Assembly: GCA_016195815.1 (NCBI GenBank)
Contig: JACPYX010000006.1
Coordinates: forward strand, 310,001-374,000
Length of the DNA: 64,000 nucleotides
From: Chloroflexota bacterium
Lineage (GTDB): Bacteria > Chloroflexota > Anaerolineae > Anaerolineales > Villigracilaceae
Direction of reading: 5' to 3'
The translations under genes and the position numbers were made by a program. The notes below the pieces were generated by a model. It worked only from the letters and a program-made list of their open reading frames with translations. It was not told the origin of the DNA and searched no databases. This document shows positions 444 through 12,199 of the stretch, one piece after another; the first letter of the stretch is position 1, and every line of letters starts with the position of its first letter.

Positions 444-744
444 GCCGAATTTTTTCACAGGCCGTACTGGCTGGAGTATTGCCCGCGTATCCCGGCATTT
501 TTTCTGCGGCCTACAAATAGAAAGGCGCAAAAGAAGCGGTAATCATTCCGTTTGACCTGCTCTTTGCAAGAAACTGGCTGTATCTATAACGTCGAGTACC
601 GGATGAGGGCGGCGATTACCCTATGGCCGGTGAATTCTCCTGCTTATTTTTATAACCGCGCTTGAATTTATATCCATGACATTTGTCACTGGCTTGAGAA
701 TTGCCATCTGGATATGATGATTGAGGCCCGTTATGGAGGTCAAC
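444..744. other. Intergenic stretch without a supported gene
   Basis: About 300 bases with many stops in all frames and no long dyad. The only clear signal is the ribosome binding site GGAGG at 735-739 for the gene at 745. A promoter for the 745-4474 operon is presumably here, but I cannot assign one. Confidence 0.5.
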
Positions 745-1182
745 ATGAAAGCCCCCTGCAAATTTCTTTTTGCCTTGATCATTGTGGTTATGACGTTTGC
801 CGGTTTGTCAGCGTGTTCGTCTCAACAAACTATTGATTTGCGCATGATGCCGCTGGACACGCTGCCCTCGGATGTGCAATCTGCGTCTGCGGCGGTGCGG
901 GAATCATACCAATTTGCAGCAGCCAACCCAGGCGTAATGAAAAATATTCCCTGCTATTGTGGTTGTGGAAATATTGGACATACATCCAATTATGACTGCT
1001 ACGTTTCGGATGTGGACGCGCAAGGCAAGATCACATTCGATAATCACGCCCTTGGCTGTTCGATCTGCGTGGATATTACCCAGGATGTGATGCGAATGCT
1101 GCGCGAAGGGAAAAGCCCACAGGAAATTAGAACGTATATAGACGCAACCTATTCCAAATATGGACCATCCAACATTCCATAA
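745..1182 (+). CDS. PCYCGC-motif lipoprotein
   Basis: A 145-residue exported protein. Residues 1-25 form a lipoprotein signal ending LSAC, so it is probably anchored outside the membrane. The centre holds the PCYCGCG motif, then HTSNYDCYV and a second pair in LGCSICVDI, giving seven cysteines plus histidines suited to metal or redox chemistry. This is the PCYCGC family (Pfam DUF with that name), whose function is not settled. The upstream TTG at 721 is less likely because GGAGG sits 5 bases before the ATG at 745. It is first in an operon with two CuA-type proteins, so a role in copper delivery to CuA sites is a reasonable inference. Confidence 0.85.
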   Translation: MKAPCKFLFALIIVVMTFAGLSACSSQQTIDLRMMPLDTLPSDVQSASAAVRESYQFAAANPGVMKNIPCYCGCGNIGHTSNYDCYVSDVDAQGKITFDNHALGCSICVDITQDVMRMLREGKSPQEIRTYIDATYSKYGPSNIP

Positions 1183-1660
1183 TCTCATGCACTCCCGTTT
1201 CTTTCTCCTCATCCTCATAATAGCTGGACTGGTCGTGGCTTTTGTGCCATTATCATTTCGCCCCATTGCGCCTCAGGAGCGGACCTTTCGGATTGGCGCG
1301 CGGCAATTTGCATACTCTCCCTCCGAGCTTAAAGTCAACCCTGGCGATAAGGTGACCATTCAACTTGTCAGCACAGACGTGGTGCATGGGCTTTACATAG
1401 ATGGTTATGATATTTCCATCGAAGCCGACCCAGGCCAAACTGCGGCATTGAATTTTTTCGCTGATAAGCCGGGTTCCTTTCGTTTTCGATGTAACGTCAC
1501 CTGCGGCGCGATGCACCCGTTCATGATCGGAAAATTGACGGTCGGCTCGAATCAATGGCTTTATCGTTCCATTGGACTTTCCATCATCGCAGCCATCAGC
1601 CTATTCTTCATCCGCTCCACGCGCCCCTCTGACCGCCAATTACCAATTACCATTTACTGA
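1160..1660 (+). CDS. CuA-type cupredoxin (cytochrome c oxidase subunit II-like), membrane-anchored
   Basis: A 166-residue protein with an N-terminal membrane segment, a cupredoxin domain (residues ~45-130) and a second hydrophobic stretch near the C-terminus. The CuA ligand set is complete: the histidine in DVVHGLYI, and CNVTCGAMHPFM, which fits C-x3-C-x3-H-x2-M. It lacks the usual two N-terminal helices of a true oxidase subunit II. The start at 1160 overlaps the previous gene by 23 bases; an ATG at 1187 would give a 4-base gap, and neither has a strong ribosome binding site. It probably hands electrons to or from the iron-sulfur protein and cytochrome fusion downstream. Confidence 0.85.
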   Translation: MDHPTFHNLMHSRFFLLILIIAGLVVAFVPLSFRPIAPQERTFRIGARQFAYSPSELKVNPGDKVTIQLVSTDVVHGLYIDGYDISIEADPGQTAALNFFADKPGSFRFRCNVTCGAMHPFMIGKLTVGSNQWLYRSIGLSIIAAISLFFIRSTRPSDRQLPITIY

Positions 1661-1682: not shown

Positions 1683-3005
1683 ATGGAACTCACCCGCCTG
1701 CCCATCCTCAAACCTGCCCTCAAAAGCCGCTATCCGCAACTGGCGGTATTTATCGTGATGCTGGCGGGATATATCTTTGCCATCCTCGCGGGATTCATCG
1801 GCACACCTGTTGGGAGCCGCAACTTCAGCATTGTCTTCGTGTGGATCGCATGGTGGGCGATCCTGATTCTCGTGGCTGTGCCATTTTTCGGGCGCGGCTG
1901 GTGCGCGGTCTGTCCCATCCCGCTTCCTGGCGAATGGCTGCAACGCGGCGCGGTATTAAATCCGCCAGATAAAAAACCAAAATGGCTTAACCTGCGCTGG
2001 CCGAAATTCCTGCGAAATATCTGGCTGCAAAATATATCCTTTCTTCTGCTTGCTCTCTTCAGTAGCGTGCTTCTCACGACACCAAACATAACCGCCATCA
2101 TTCTTGCCGCGATGCTCTTCGCCGCCATTGGACTCAGCATGGTTTTCGAGCGCCGCTCATTTTGCCGTTATCTCTGTCCCGTTGGCGGGTTCATCGGTTT
2201 GTATTCTCAAACAGCGCCGATTGAATTGCGGATCAAAGAAAAACAAGTTTGCGTGGTTTGCGATGGCAAACCTTGTTACAACGGATCGCAAACAGGCTAT
2301 GGTTGTCCGTGGGATGTCTTTCCTGGCGGCTTGAGGAAAAACACCTATTGCGGCTTGTGCATGGAATGTATCCGCACCTGCCCGCACGATAATATCGCCA
2401 TCAATCTTCGCCCGTTTTCGGCTGATCTTGCAAAACCATCAGCGCGAATAGACGAAGCATTCAAAGCCTTCATCATGCTCGCTTCGGCAATGATCTATGC
2501 GGGCGTATTGCTCGGTCCCTGGGGCGCGCTTAAGGACGCGGCTTACAATGTTGGCACAAGCGCATGGCTCATTTATGCCATCATTTTTCTGGCAATCATC
2601 TTTGCTGTTCTTCCTGGATTCTTTGCGCTTGGCATTCTAAAAACGAAAAGCGCTCTTCCATTGAAACAACGTTTTGCTTCTTTTGCAACCGCCCTCATTC
2701 CTCTCGGTCTGATGTTCTGGGTTGCATTCAGTTTATCTTTCGTGCTGACCAATGCAAGCTACATTCTTGCCTCATTATCCGATCCGCTCGGTCTCGGCTG
2801 GAATTTATTCGGCACAGCCAGCACCGCGTGGAAACCCATGCTCACGTCCATTCTCGCACCCGCGCAAACATTGGCACTCGTCGGCGGGTTGATCTGGTCG
2901 GCGCGCACCGCGCAAAAAGCCGCGAACGAAATAAAGTCATCTTCAATTCCTGTCATTACGTTTTGCTTCATCGTCACACTGGTCATGCTTTGGTTACTCC
3001 TATGA
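1683..3005 (+). CDS. NosR/NapH-like polytopic membrane protein with 4Fe-4S sites
   Basis: 440 residues with several transmembrane helices. An early CAVCP motif (~74-78) and FCRYLCPVGG (~160) are the CxxxCP elements of the NapH/NosR/RdxA group. They are followed by CVVC and by a ferredoxin-type cluster motif CGLCMECIRTCP (~223-234). Relatives move electrons between the quinone pool and periplasmic acceptors. No nosZ, nap or cco gene is present, so the partner is presumably the CuA proteins on either side. Its stop overlaps the next start by 4 bases (ATGA at 3002). The C-terminal half has further helices of unknown role. Confidence 0.85.
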   Translation: MELTRLPILKPALKSRYPQLAVFIVMLAGYIFAILAGFIGTPVGSRNFSIVFVWIAWWAILILVAVPFFGRGWCAVCPIPLPGEWLQRGAVLNPPDKKPKWLNLRWPKFLRNIWLQNISFLLLALFSSVLLTTPNITAIILAAMLFAAIGLSMVFERRSFCRYLCPVGGFIGLYSQTAPIELRIKEKQVCVVCDGKPCYNGSQTGYGCPWDVFPGGLRKNTYCGLCMECIRTCPHDNIAINLRPFSADLAKPSARIDEAFKAFIMLASAMIYAGVLLGPWGALKDAAYNVGTSAWLIYAIIFLAIIFAVLPGFFALGILKTKSALPLKQRFASFATALIPLGLMFWVAFSLSFVLTNASYILASLSDPLGLGWNLFGTASTAWKPMLTSILAPAQTLALVGGLIWSARTAQKAANEIKSSSIPVITFCFIVTLVMLWLLL

Positions 3006-3979
3006 AACGCCTGGAACTCCTCTCACGTATTTTGATAACGCTGGCAATTGTCGGTGCAGTTGGAACGCCGCTGTATTTTTGGTCGCGCACGCCGCTGATC
3101 CACGCCCGCATCGCGGAGAACGGCGGCTGGACTCCCGATGTCATCCGCGCCAATGTTGGCGAGCCGCTTCATTTGAAACTCACATCCGATGATGTTGTTC
3201 ACGGATTCGCCGTCGGTCAAATGGATATGCAAAGTGTGGATGTCCTGCCTGGCAAAGTCACCGACCTAACTTTGATTTTCGACAAGCCTGGGATTTACAC
3301 ATTTTATTGCACGCGCTGGTGCGGACTCAATCATTGGCGGATGCGCGGCACGATTGAAGTCGGCGGTTCATCTTCGGACACTCAACCTGCCTCTGCTCCG
3401 TTGTATGTGACTCTCAAAATCAACATTGACGCGCCGCATAACGCGCCAACCATCCCGGTCCAAAAACCCTCCGCCCTGCGCGGTCAATCTTTTTCAACTC
3501 AATTACCAATTACCAACTCAACCAATTACTACCGTGCAAATTCACCTTATCAAGTGTTCGATGAATTATCCAATACATCACTCACAGAAACAGAGCGCTG
3601 GGATGTGGCTGCTTATCTCTGGCAATCCAACACCACAGCCGAATCCCTCGCAAACGGACAGCGCCTCTACGCCCAGAATTGCGCGGCATGTCACGGCGAG
3701 AACGGTGCCGGCGATGGAGTCTTTGCGGACGATTTAACGGCATTGGGAGCAACTTTACAACGAAGCATGACGGGTGATAACAAAATGACAATGCAAACGC
3801 CCGCGGACTTTACCGATCCAAAACGGATGATGGGCGCAAGCCCCGCGCTGTTGCAGGGAAAAATCCTGCGCGGCGGCATGGGTACAGGAATGCCCATGTG
3901 GGGCTCGATTTTTACCGAAGAACAAATCTGGGACTTGATCGCGTATCTGTATTCATTCCAGTTTGAATATCAGAAGTGA
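3002..3979 (+). CDS. CuA cupredoxin fused to cytochrome c
   Basis: A 325-residue protein: N-terminal membrane anchor (~8-25), cupredoxin domain (~35-125) with VVHGFAV and CTRWCGLNHWRM (a full C-x3-C-x3-H-x2-M CuA motif), a linker, then a class I cytochrome c domain with the heme site CAACH at ~227-231 and a late GMGTGMPMWG segment that could supply the axial methionine. The order resembles caa3-type subunit II, but only one N-terminal helix is present and no catalytic subunit I adjoins it. The ATG at 3002 is chosen because it overlaps the upstream stop; the longer open frame upstream is a shadow of the previous gene. Confidence 0.88.
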   Translation: MKRLELLSRILITLAIVGAVGTPLYFWSRTPLIHARIAENGGWTPDVIRANVGEPLHLKLTSDDVVHGFAVGQMDMQSVDVLPGKVTDLTLIFDKPGIYTFYCTRWCGLNHWRMRGTIEVGGSSSDTQPASAPLYVTLKINIDAPHNAPTIPVQKPSALRGQSFSTQLPITNSTNYYRANSPYQVFDELSNTSLTETERWDVAAYLWQSNTTAESLANGQRLYAQNCAACHGENGAGDGVFADDLTALGATLQRSMTGDNKMTMQTPADFTDPKRMMGASPALLQGKILRGGMGTGMPMWGSIFTEEQIWDLIAYLYSFQFEYQK

Positions 3980-3988
3980 GGAGGCTTA

Positions 3989-4474
3989 ATGAGCAAAAAA
4001 CAGAACAAGCAAAAGCAAAAGCAGAAGCAGAAGCAGAAGCAGAAGAAAAATTTTCCCTGGGTTTTCGTCGCCTTTGGCGGCGTCCTGATTATTACCGCGA
4101 TATTTTTCTTCGCCAGGCAGAATGGCGGCGGAGGCGGGACTCCCGCGATTACCGTTGACCAGCAGAAAATTGACTATGGCTATGTCCAGTTTGGCAACAA
4201 TAAAACATTTACCATCAAAGTCACCAACGCTGGCAGCGGAGTGCTTCGTTTCAATGAGAAACCATATATCCAGGTTGTGGAGGGGTGCTGACCCCCTCAA
4301 TTAACCATCGGTTCGATGGTACTCAAGCCTGGTGAAAGCACAACTGTTGAATCCAGCATTTTCATGATGCACCCAGGTATGGACGGCCCGCATGATTATG
4401 CCGTGCATTTGAAAACAAATGACCCCGACAATCCCGATCTGATCGTGAGCGTCTTATCAAATTGGGGGCCATAA
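3989..4474 (+). CDS. Membrane-anchored DUF1573-like protein with in-frame TGA (candidate selenoprotein)
   Basis: The frame opens at 3989 with a Lys/Gln repeat, then a membrane helix (~22-40) and a beta-rich domain. At codon 101 (4289-4291) it meets TGA directly after a cysteine codon, and then continues open in the same frame for 60 codons to TAA at 4472. The join reads VVEGC-U-PPQLTIGSM. The part after the TGA (KPGESTTVESS, MHPGMDGPHDYAVHLKTNDP) is clearly the rest of the same domain. From memory, relatives have two adjacent cysteines here. A hairpin fitting the bacterial SECIS rules follows the TGA. The alternatives are a nonsense mutation or a sequencing error. Confidence 0.6.
4304..4320 (+). 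promoter_or_regulatory. Candidate bacterial SECIS hairpin
   Basis: ACCATC pairs with GATGGT around the 5-base loop GGTTC. The loop starts 18 bases after the in-frame TGA (4289-4291), and its first two bases are G. Published rules for bacterial SECIS elements ask for a loop 16-37 bases after UGA, a 4-16 bp upper stem, and a G in the first two loop positions; all are met. The hairpin lies inside the coding frame. Confidence 0.5.
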
Positions 4475-8711: not shown

Positions 8712-8798
8712 ATGAATCGAATATTGAGACGCATGTGTGATCCATGCGCAGACGTTGGCCTGTCAGGGCCAGCGTTGATATATGATGTGAATGAATAG
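8712..8798 (+). CDS. 28-codon leader ORF upstream of the oxidase operon
   Basis: ATG at 8712 has GAGGA 6 bases upstream, a better ribosome binding site than many genes here. The predicted peptide has a CxxC (MCDPCADVG) and ends at TAG 8796-8798. The AGGA that serves coxB at 8809 overlaps this stop, so coupled translation is possible. A hairpin, TGGCC pairing with GGCCA, lies inside it. It could be a regulatory leader, a small protein, or chance. Confidence 0.35.
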   Translation: MNRILRRMCDPCADVGLSGPALIYDVNE

Positions 8799-8808
8799 GA
8801 CTTCACTA

Positions 8809-9537
8809 ATGAAACGACACCTCCTTTATGCAGGTTTGTTATGGATCATCCTGACGGCCATAGGAGAATACGCGGCGTTCAATGCGAAGTTTTTCACCGC
8901 TGGGGCCGCCGCTGAGGCTGTCATCGTTGACGACGCGTTTCGCCTGCTTATGCTGCTTGGCACGCCGGTCTTCACCTTTGTTTTAGCCGGGCTGGTCTAT
9001 AGTGTGCTTGCGTTCCGCGCCCGAAGCGAGTCCATCGAAGACGGCCCGCCGATCCGCAGCAGCCGCACAGTGACGTGGCTGTGGCTGGTCATCACCTCCG
9101 GCCTGGCCATTTTCATCTTTTTCAATCCCGGTGTAAAAGGACTCAACGAACTGAATGCCAATCCCAATGCTGATCTCGTCGTGCAGGTGCAGGCGCGCAA
9201 GTGGGCCTGGAAGCTCACTTATCCGGAATACAACGTCACAATCGAGGACGCCTCCGAATTGGTCTTGCCGGTGAATCGGCGCGTGAAATTTGAGATTACA
9301 TCCGCAGATGTAATCCACGCCTTCTGGGTGCCAGCCTTTCGCATGAAGATTGACGCCATGCCGGGACAGACAAATGTGTTGTACATCACGCCCAACCAGT
9401 TGAGTGCGTCATCTCAAAACGATTTCAACCTGCGCGTCCAGTGCGCGGAACTGTGCGGCACCGGTCACGCGCGTATGAGGGCGCAAGTCCGCGTTGTGGA
9501 ACAATCCGAATTTGAAGCGTGGCTGGCCGGGCAATAA
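8809..9537 (+). CDS. coxB: Cytochrome c oxidase subunit II
   Basis: 242 residues with two N-terminal transmembrane helices after a short leader helix, then the periplasmic cupredoxin domain. CuA ligands are present: HAFWVPAF and CAELCGTGHARM. The aromatic patch ARKWAWKLTYPE, used for electron entry from cytochrome c, is also visible. No C-terminal heme c is fused. I prefer ATG 8809 (AGGA 9 bases upstream) over ATG 8791, which overlaps the leader ORF. It heads the genes for a heme-copper oxidase. Confidence 0.95.
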   Translation: MKRHLLYAGLLWIILTAIGEYAAFNAKFFTAGAAAEAVIVDDAFRLLMLLGTPVFTFVLAGLVYSVLAFRARSESIEDGPPIRSSRTVTWLWLVITSGLAIFIFFNPGVKGLNELNANPNADLVVQVQARKWAWKLTYPEYNVTIEDASELVLPVNRRVKFEITSADVIHAFWVPAFRMKIDAMPGQTNVLYITPNQLSASSQNDFNLRVQCAELCGTGHARMRAQVRVVEQSEFEAWLAGQ

Positions 9538-9580
9538 GCCCATCGCGATCAAGAATGCTTGGAATGGAGAGAGCATTGCA

Positions 9581-11398
9581 ATGAAACCAATATTGAAAGG
9601 CATCCTATGGGCTGTCATTGGGTTTACAGGTGGAGCAGGCTTACTGACGCTGGTCCGTCTCGCGCTGGGTATGTCGCTATGGGATTTGGAACCGGCGATC
9701 TCCGTCGGTTATATATTTGGATTGACCGGCTGGTTGTTGGGCGTGGGCGTTTGGGATTACTGGGCGCGCGCGTGGTTCGGCCTGCCGCTGAAGAAGTTTG
9801 AGGCAAACGGCTTGAGCCGTTACTTCAGTTTCAACCTGGATCACAAGGTGATTGGTTTGCAATACCTGGCGGTCTTCTTTTTTATGTTGCTGACGGGCGG
9901 GCTATTCGCCATGCTTATGCGTTTGGAACTCATGCGCCCGGGCCGCGAGTTTATGGACCCGGCAGTTTACAACCAGATCATGAGCCTGCACGGAATATTT
10001 ATGATCGCAGTGGCTGTGGCCGTCATCATCGGCTCGTTTGGCAATTACATCGTGCCGCTGATGATCGGCGCGGACGACATGGCTTTCCCACGTCTCAACG
10101 CGCTGAGTTTCTGGCTGACGCCGCTCGTGCCGCTCCTCCTGCTTTCGTCGTTATTCTTCGGCGGCTGGGACAGCGGCTGGACCGCGTATGCGCCCCTCAG
10201 CGTCACGAACAGAACCGGCCAGCTCTTCTACAATCTGGCCTTCATGACCCTCGGCTTGTCATCTATCGTTGGCGCGGTGAATTTCCTGACCACTGTCCTG
10301 ACCAAACGCGCGCCCGGCCTGACGTGGGGGCGACTGCCCATCTTCGTCTGGTCGATCATTGCTACCGCCATTCTGTCCCTGCTTGCCACAAACTTCATCT
10401 TCGTTGTCCTCCTGCTGGCCACCCTCGAACGCATCGCGGGCATGGCCTTCTTCAATCCGGCCGGAGGCGGGAACCCGATCCTGTATCAGCATCTCTTCTG
10501 GTTCTATTCGCATCCGGCAGTCTACGTCATGGCATTGCCCGGGCTGGGTGTGGTGCTGGAAGTGATCGCTCACTTCTCGCGCAAGCCGCTCTTCGCCTAC
10601 AAATGGGCGGTGGCCGGGTTCCTGGGTATCACCGCCTTGAGTTTCACCGTGTGGGCGCACCACATGTTTACAACCGGCATGCCCGAAAGCCGCACCGCGT
10701 TCATGTTCACAACTGAACTGATCTCCATCCCGACGGGTTTCATCTTCCTTTCAGCGCTCGGCACGATCTGGCAGGGGAGATTGCGACTCAACACGCCGAT
10801 GCTGTTCGGGCTGGCCGTGATCGTCAACTTTCTGATCGGCGGCATCACCGGCATCTTCCTGGCTGATGTGCCCACCGACATTCAATTGCAGGATACCTTC
10901 TGGGTGGTGGCGCATTTTCATTACACCATCGTCAGCACGCAGATCTTTGGCCTGGTCGCGGCCATCTACTATTGGTTGCCTAAATTTACAGGCCGCATGT
11001 ACAGCGAACGTCTCGGCAAGATTCACTTCTGGTGGATGTTCGTAACCTTCAATACCACGTTCCTGCCTATGTTCTGGTTGGGGTTGAACGGCATGAATCG
11101 CCGCGTTGCCCAATACCCGGCACCGCTGGGCGATGTCAATATGTGGGTGAGCCTGAATGCCTTTTTGCTGGGCGCGAGTTTCGCCTTCTTCGTTGTACTG
11201 ATAGCCCTCGCCTGGGTGCGCGGACCACGCGCGGTTTCTAACCCATGGGCCGCCCGCACGCTGGAATGGCAGACCGCCTCGCCGCCACCGCATGATAATT
11301 TCCCGCGCGAGCCTAAAGTGGTCGGCGCACCCTACGATTACGGCGTGCCAGATTCGACGCACGCCATAGTCCCGGCCGCGGACAGCGGCAATGACTAA
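9581..11398 (+). CDS. coxA: Cytochrome c oxidase subunit I (A2-type heme-copper oxidase)
   Basis: 605 residues, the catalytic subunit that reduces oxygen and pumps protons. Ligands seen are the low-spin heme histidines (LMSLHGIF and HFHYTI), CuB histidines in FYSHPAVYVMALPG and HHMFTTGMP, and the pair in VVAHFHYTI. The YSHPAVY form, without the glutamate of GHPEVY enzymes, marks an A2-type oxidase. Two extra hydrophobic segments precede the usual first helix. The start at 9581 is set by GGAGAGAG upstream; the frame extends further left without support. Confidence 0.96.
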   Translation: MKPILKGILWAVIGFTGGAGLLTLVRLALGMSLWDLEPAISVGYIFGLTGWLLGVGVWDYWARAWFGLPLKKFEANGLSRYFSFNLDHKVIGLQYLAVFFFMLLTGGLFAMLMRLELMRPGREFMDPAVYNQIMSLHGIFMIAVAVAVIIGSFGNYIVPLMIGADDMAFPRLNALSFWLTPLVPLLLLSSLFFGGWDSGWTAYAPLSVTNRTGQLFYNLAFMTLGLSSIVGAVNFLTTVLTKRAPGLTWGRLPIFVWSIIATAILSLLATNFIFVVLLLATLERIAGMAFFNPAGGGNPILYQHLFWFYSHPAVYVMALPGLGVVLEVIAHFSRKPLFAYKWAVAGFLGITALSFTVWAHHMFTTGMPESRTAFMFTTELISIPTGFIFLSALGTIWQGRLRLNTPMLFGLAVIVNFLIGGITGIFLADVPTDIQLQDTFWVVAHFHYTIVSTQIFGLVAAIYYWLPKFTGRMYSERLGKIHFWWMFVTFNTTFLPMFWLGLNGMNRRVAQYPAPLGDVNMWVSLNAFLLGASFAFFVVLIALAWVRGPRAVSNPWAARTLEWQTASPPPHDNFPREPKVVGAPYDYGVPDSTHAIVPAADSGND

Positions 11399-11435
11399 CG
11401 ATGTAAGCAATGCGCCACATAGGAGGAGTAAACGA

Positions 11436-11639
11436 ATGAAATCTTCAACCAAAACAATACAGGGCTGGCTGGTGCTGGCCGCGTTGGCCGCGTTGACGGC
11501 AGTGGAATTCTGGCTGAGTTCAGCCACACGTCCCGCGTTGCCATATCTGATTATCATCGCCATCGTAAAGGCAGTTCTGATCGTCCATTACTTCATGCGT
11601 ATCTCGCAACTCTGGGTGCGCGAGGACCAACACTCATGA
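11436..11639 (+). CDS. Cytochrome c oxidase subunit IV (small prokaryotic type)
   Basis: 67 residues with two helices, including the family pattern KAVLIVHYFMRIS. The strong ribosome binding site AGGAGGAG (11421-11428) decides the start at 11436. It sits between subunits I and III, overlapping the next start by 4 bases. The small subunit probably helps assembly or stability. Confidence 0.85.
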   Translation: MKSSTKTIQGWLVLAALAALTAVEFWLSSATRPALPYLIIIAIVKAVLIVHYFMRISQLWVREDQHS

Positions 11640-12199
11640 CCACCACTACGGTCCCTCACACGCGCTACAGCCGCCTGAATATCAATCGCATTGGGTTGTG
11701 GCTTTTCATTCTTTCCGAGTCCGGCATCTTTATCGCCCTGCTGGCTGTGCGCTTTTACCTGGAAGGCACCAGCCGTCCCGAAGCGTTGAACCAGACTCTC
11801 GGCCTGATCATCACAGCCATCCTGCTTCTCAGCAGTTTGACGGCCTACCGCGCCGAGACTGCCATTGCCCAAGGCGACCAGGCTGGGTTCCTCCGCAACA
11901 CGCTCGCGACACTTATCTTGGGATTGGTCTTTTTGGCTGGCGTCGGCATCGAATGGTCGCAGGCGTTTCGCGAATTTCCGCCGCAATCAGGATTTGGACG
12001 GGTGTTCTTTGCCATGACGGGTATGCACGCCTTCCACGTCCTGACCGGGCTAATCCTGTTCGGGCTGTTATACTTCAATGGGCGGCGCGGGGCTTATTCA
12101 GCGGAGAGTCATTGGGGGGTTGAGGCTATTGTTAAATACTGGCACTTCGTGGACGTGGTGTGGGTGTTCTTTTACCCGGCGCTTTATCTCCTTTCATAG
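11636..12199 (+). CDS. coxC: Cytochrome c oxidase subunit III
   Basis: 187 residues with five transmembrane helices. Typical blocks are LNINRIGLWLFILSESGIF, the HAFHVLTGLILF stretch and the C-terminal YWHFVDVVWVFFYPALYL. It is a core subunit of the oxidase. The length fits the short five-helix form. ATGA overlap with the small subunit IV gene points to one transcript from site C. Confidence 0.94.
   Translation: MTTTTVPHTRYSRLNINRIGLWLFILSESGIFIALLAVRFYLEGTSRPEALNQTLGLIITAILLLSSLTAYRAETAIAQGDQAGFLRNTLATLILGLVFLAGVGIEWSQAFREFPPQSGFGRVFFAMTGMHAFHVLTGLILFGLLYFNGRRGAYSAESHWGVEAIVKYWHFVDVVWVFFYPALYLLS

Follow-up and report, generated by a model that had tools for sequence, protein, structure and literature searches.

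A predicted selenoprotein family with a GC-U-P site, encoded beside CuA-protein genes in Chloroflexota

The 64,000-nucleotide stretch of Chloroflexota DNA analysed here (the window) carries an open reading frame with a TGA codon directly after a cysteine codon. Is this TGA a stop, an error or a codon for selenocysteine (Sec), and, if it is read as Sec, what might the product do? Comparison of homologous genes and of the RNA hairpin that follows the TGA indicates that it is decoded as Sec, a reading to which a probability of roughly 0.97 is attached on computational grounds.

The interrupted frame and its homologues

The original prediction described a frame open on both sides of the TGA, with 100 codons before it and 60 after, and these coordinates were confirmed (Table 1). 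It holds a single in-frame TGA, and the translation reads MSKK...VVEGC-TGA-PPQLTIG...LSNWGP. Standard annotation would cut the gene in two at this point, and such genes are presumably annotated as truncated. The AlphaFold model of the product has a pLDDT above 90 over most of residues 51-161 (whole-chain mean 83.6). Across 45 diverse members of the family, the invariant residues are G64, N80, G82, L86, G99, C100, U/C101, P102, G115, M127, M131, G133 and H135.

Table 1. Features of the selenoprotein locus (positions within the window)
Feature	Position (strand)	Description
PCYCGC protein (PF13798)	721..1182 (+)	conserved neighbour
Membrane-anchored cupredoxin	1160..1660 (+)	CuA-type CxxxCxxxH..M motif (COX2 domain); conserved neighbour
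Fer4_5 membrane polyferredoxin	1683..3005 (+)	conserved neighbour
CuA domain fused to cytochrome c	3002..3979 (+)	directly upstream of selenoprotein gene; TGA stop 3977-3979
Ribosome-binding site GGAGG	3980..3984 (+)	between CuA-cytochrome c gene stop and selenoprotein ATG
Selenoprotein gene (predicted)	3989..4474 (+)	161 aa; ATG 3989; Sec = residue 101; motif EGC-U-PP; TAA stop 4472-4474
Predicted transmembrane helix	4058..4120 (+)	residues 24-44, after Lys/Gln-rich N-terminus; topology predicted from sequence
Ig/ASH-like beta-sandwich domain	4148..4471 (+)	residues 54-161; DUF1573-related
Cys100 codon TGC	4286..4288 (+)	directly 5' of TGA; invariant Sec partner
Sec101 codon TGA	4289..4291 (+)	predicted to encode Sec, from homologue comparison
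SECIS hairpin (predicted)	4304..4320 (+)	arms 4304-4309/4315-4320; inner G-C pair 4310/4314; apical loop GUU 4311-4313
M127-x3-M131-x3-H135	4367..4393 (+)	candidate Cu(I) ligands (putative metal binding); H128 also in most members

Of 396 genomes sampled from the class, 94 gave matches to the protein, and almost every match with E below 1e-12 contains exactly one TGA. Named Chloroflexi/Anaerolineae MAGs supplied 19 more loci, and sampling across the phylum added genomes from outside the class, in which the copies readable at the site all have TGA. Removal of duplicates left 101 TGA genes and 8 Cys genes, from Chloroflexota. No homologues were detected among the plasmids or the viral contigs searched. 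A scan of genome contigs with the patterns of one sequence, which leaves room for members in other phyla, returned matches from Chloroflexota only. At one locus (L131, G213:C1:4125080-4125534), close to a contig end, the frame is shifted soon after the hairpin, and this copy is either a pseudogene or an assembly error.

The residue at the recoded site is Sec or Cys only, and always in the context GC-[U/C]-P (GC-TGA-P, n = 101; GC-C-P, n = 8; other residues, 0); no other sense codon occurs there. Two signs by which selenoproteins are recognised are both found, namely an in-frame UGA with protein conserved on either side of it (101 distinct homologues) and exchange of Sec for Cys (8 homologues). 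A TGC or TGT codon is one base away from TGA, and a sequencing error or a recent nonsense mutation could in principle have given rise to the interruption. The recurrence of TGA in 101 distinct homologues, which represent many independent assemblies and several classes, refutes this explanation and makes it vanishingly improbable, so that the base error raised as a concern in the original prediction is excluded. A recoded genetic code was also rejected, since TGA serves as a normal stop in the upstream CuA-cytochrome gene.

Selenocysteine machinery and the downstream hairpin

The selenocysteine genes, which lie outside the window and were to be sought elsewhere in the genome, are all four present in the same assembly (3.16 Mb, 23 contigs, 97.9% complete). 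SelA scores 538 bits, SelB and SelD score above their profile cut-offs, and selC specifies a tRNA-Sec (69.8 bits) with the anticodon UCA. The selD gene of this genome (L021, G000:C5:18226-19158, minus strand) is itself a selenoprotein gene, with an in-frame TGA in AGUASK. Among genomes with the family, selA is present in 35 of 37 that carry TGA forms compared with 2 of 5 that carry only Cys forms (small numbers); that it was not found in two of the TGA genomes is possibly due to incomplete drafts.

A hairpin with a 6-bp stem starts 12 bases 3' of the TGA, and its geometry agrees with that published for bacterial SECIS elements, as had been proposed. The bSECIS criteria call for a loop 16-37 nt after the UGA, a G in the first two loop positions and an MFE of -7.5 or lower; here the loop lies 19 nt after the UGA, consists of GUU closed by a G-C pair, and the energy is -10.3 kcal/mol. 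Taken by itself, the hairpin of the window sequence does not exceed shuffled versions in stability (z -0.5), and its significance is apparent only by comparison across homologous sequences. All six stem pairs are present in 93 of the 101 TGA genes and five of six in another 6, the position being fixed in these 99. In two further loci (L096 and L105) an extra codon after the TGA places the SECIS 3 nt further away, and the hairpin is intact. The eight Cys genes all lack the hairpin, retaining between one and three of the six pairs. Since the stem is kept in TGA genes and absent from Cys genes, selection at the RNA level acts only where TGA is present.

The stem also shows compensatory changes, with switches between U-A and C-G and between G-C and A-U. 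In genomes outside the class the innermost pair changes from C-G to G-C (L143, L154) or to A-U (L148, L150, L151), for example from GTC GGT TCG to GTA GGT CCT or GTG AGT TCC, and across the family the loop begins with G-G-U or A-G-U. The covariation score is 0.472 compared with 0.235 (sd 0.017) in shuffled alignments, none of 500 shuffles reaching the observed value, and it is at most 0.257 when the stem is slid along the alignment. Resampling of synonymous codons with the protein kept gives a full stem in 12.6% of cases on average (maximum 24%) compared with 93.9% in the actual genes. In codons +5 to +9, fixation of the third base reaches 95-100%, where 40-48% would be expected, and at +10 it is back at the background level.

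These comparisons bear on the simplest reading of the locus, in which translation truly ends at the TGA to give a functional 100-aa product, and the sequence beyond it is either decayed or translated from an in-frame ATG at 4316. TGA does end other genes in this genome. Under this reading, however, the residues after the TGA should not be conserved as protein in more than 100 homologues, including the GCCP forms that are read straight through, nor should the point of division always replace a Cys codon, and the covariation of the hairpin would have no place; a true stop is therefore extremely improbable. The preferred reading, of a selenoprotein, is strongly supported by the 101 TGA and 8 Cys homologues, the hairpin comparison and the Sec genes. 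In mechanistic terms, SelB carrying Sec-tRNA(UCA) would decode the UGA as Sec under the direction of the hairpin that begins 12 nt after it.

Relation to DUF1573 proteins and to known selenoproteins

The window protein scores above the gathering threshold of PF22544, a HYDIN/VesB-like Ig domain (28.2 bits vs 25.5), and below that of PF07610, DUF1573 (19.9 bits vs 26.1). The proposed likeness to DUF1573 is borne out at the level of the family: 44 of the 45 members match DUF1573 at E <= 0.01 (best 1.3e-10), and profile-profile alignment (hhalign) with ordinary DUF1573 proteins gives a probability of 99.3%, placing Cys100 on the first Cys of the CGC motif and Sec101 on its Gly. The two groups have an Ig-like fold in common. 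Ordinary DUF1573 proteins (PF07610, SCGCT motif) differ in having no TGA, CGC in place of CU-P, and no invariant M-x3-M-x3-H motif. The Cys-Cys pair that the original prediction expected in relatives is found in a minority of the family itself (the 8 Cys forms), whereas ordinary DUF1573 proteins have C-G-C with Sec falling on the Gly. The best structural match, PDB 2qsv (Z 13.2 over 104 residues, rmsd 2.1), is a Porphyromonas gingivalis protein of unknown function with a similar domain fold and 19% identity.

A selenoprotein of the DUF1573 superfamily, OS_HP2, has been described before, reportedly by Zhang and Gladyshev in 2007. It is represented by NCBIfam NF041425 (OS_HP2 family (seleno)protein) and corresponds to the entry 'DUF1573 domain-containing protein, UGC' (PMC9312934, PMC13188914, PMC2398784). 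Besides the common superfamily, OS_HP2 has its Sec near the same loop, and 37 of the 45 members match NF041425 weakly, which could place the new proteins in this catalogued family. The scores among the matches listed, which do not include the window protein, are however about 16-38 bits where the cut-off is 100, and DUF1573 proteins of the ordinary, TGA-free kind from the same class outscore the members, reaching 76 bits. In OS_HP2 the Sec takes the place of the first Cys of C-x-C (UxC/UGC), whereas in the new family it follows a Cys (C-U-P) at the Gly position of CGC, no Cys lies two residues after it, and the Met/His motif belongs to the new family. Membership of OS_HP2 was rejected on score and on the motif as described for that family, and is improbable.

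A review of May 2026 lists 119 prokaryotic selenoprotein families, in which DUF1573 'UGC' is the sole entry of the DUF1573 superfamily. The GC-U-P family is absent from this catalogue (the literature covered being open-access papers), and none of the NCBI family models names it. By the rule of that review, proteins with the same domain but a different Sec position or motif belong to different subfamilies, and the GC-U-P proteins therefore constitute a new family or subfamily. The original claim of novelty stands as to the Sec site and the sequence, but a DUF1573 selenoprotein as such (OS_HP2, UxC) was already known. Homology-based selenoprotein predictors depend on Cys homologues, the rarity of which may be the reason that this family was missed.

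Copper-related neighbours, possible function and evolution

The gene order in the window is PCYCGC protein, cupredoxin/CuA protein, polyferredoxin, CuA-cytochrome c and selenoprotein, and positions 8791-12199 hold a cytochrome oxidase cluster (coxB, coxA and a coxC-like frame). In 88 of 106 loci, many of them just a few kb in length, one or more of PCYCGC, CuA-cupredoxin, polyferredoxin, CuA-cytochrome and CopA is encoded nearby. Some of the 106 loci also carry FTR1 or a histidine kinase, and a few have TlpA-like genes. The CYCXC/PCYCGC family (PF13798) includes Sec members in other bacteria; its sequence is unrelated to that of the new selenoprotein, and all 47 copies found in the loci have Cys, none having Sec.

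A selenoprotein with a general role in a copper module is likely, and the invariant residues and gene neighbours suggest that the protein probably handles copper for respiratory enzymes outside the cytoplasm. In the proposed model, the single helix would anchor the product in the cytoplasmic membrane with the Ig/ASH-like domain outside, as the predicted topology suggests, where the domain would present the vicinal Cys100-Sec101 pair together with the M-x3-M-x3-H motif. Most probably this site would bind Cu(I), or maintain the cysteine ligands of CuA sites in the reduced state, while the CuA proteins encoded nearby are being assembled or repaired. Selenolate is a good Cu(I) ligand and resists irreversible over-oxidation, properties that would suit it to such a role. 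Copper binding or delivery in particular, to which the conserved residues and neighbours point, is given slightly less than even odds.

A selenoprotein with a purely thiol/selenol redox function and no copper is somewhat unlikely. In this case the Cys-Sec pair would reduce disulfides (in PCYCGC or among the CuA cysteines, for instance) or methionine oxides, as might be expected from its vicinal arrangement, from the TlpA-like genes in a few neighbourhoods and from the catalogued selenoproteins, which are mostly thought to be redox proteins. A pure redox role would not, however, need M127, M131 and H135, which show the same invariance as the Cys-Sec pair, and CopA, CuA and FTR1 as neighbours suggest metals. 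The copper-related role is preferred.

A tree for which the Sec/Cys residue was masked, with DUF1573 proteins of the ordinary kind serving as outgroup, has Sec forms on the deepest branches and Cys forms nested among them, about five changes being needed; many of its forks are weak. Sec thus looks to be the ancestral state of the family in this sequence comparison, with Cys having arisen about five times, and the distribution of selA fits this direction, of Sec loss. Since Cys can replace Sec, selenium is not strictly required. Two genomes (G247 and G129, loci L121 and L038) carry Sec and Cys paralogues near each other on one contig and would be suited to comparing the two forms.

The fullest interpretation, put forward tentatively, is of a phylum-wide family in which Sec is ancestral and an extracytoplasmic copper site of Cys-Sec and Met/His residues serves to build or repair CuA centres and so connects selenium with copper respiration. 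The predicted selenoprotein family is widespread in the class, with Sec as the usual form and Cys as the exceptional one, and its gene context ties selenium to the copper enzymes of respiration.
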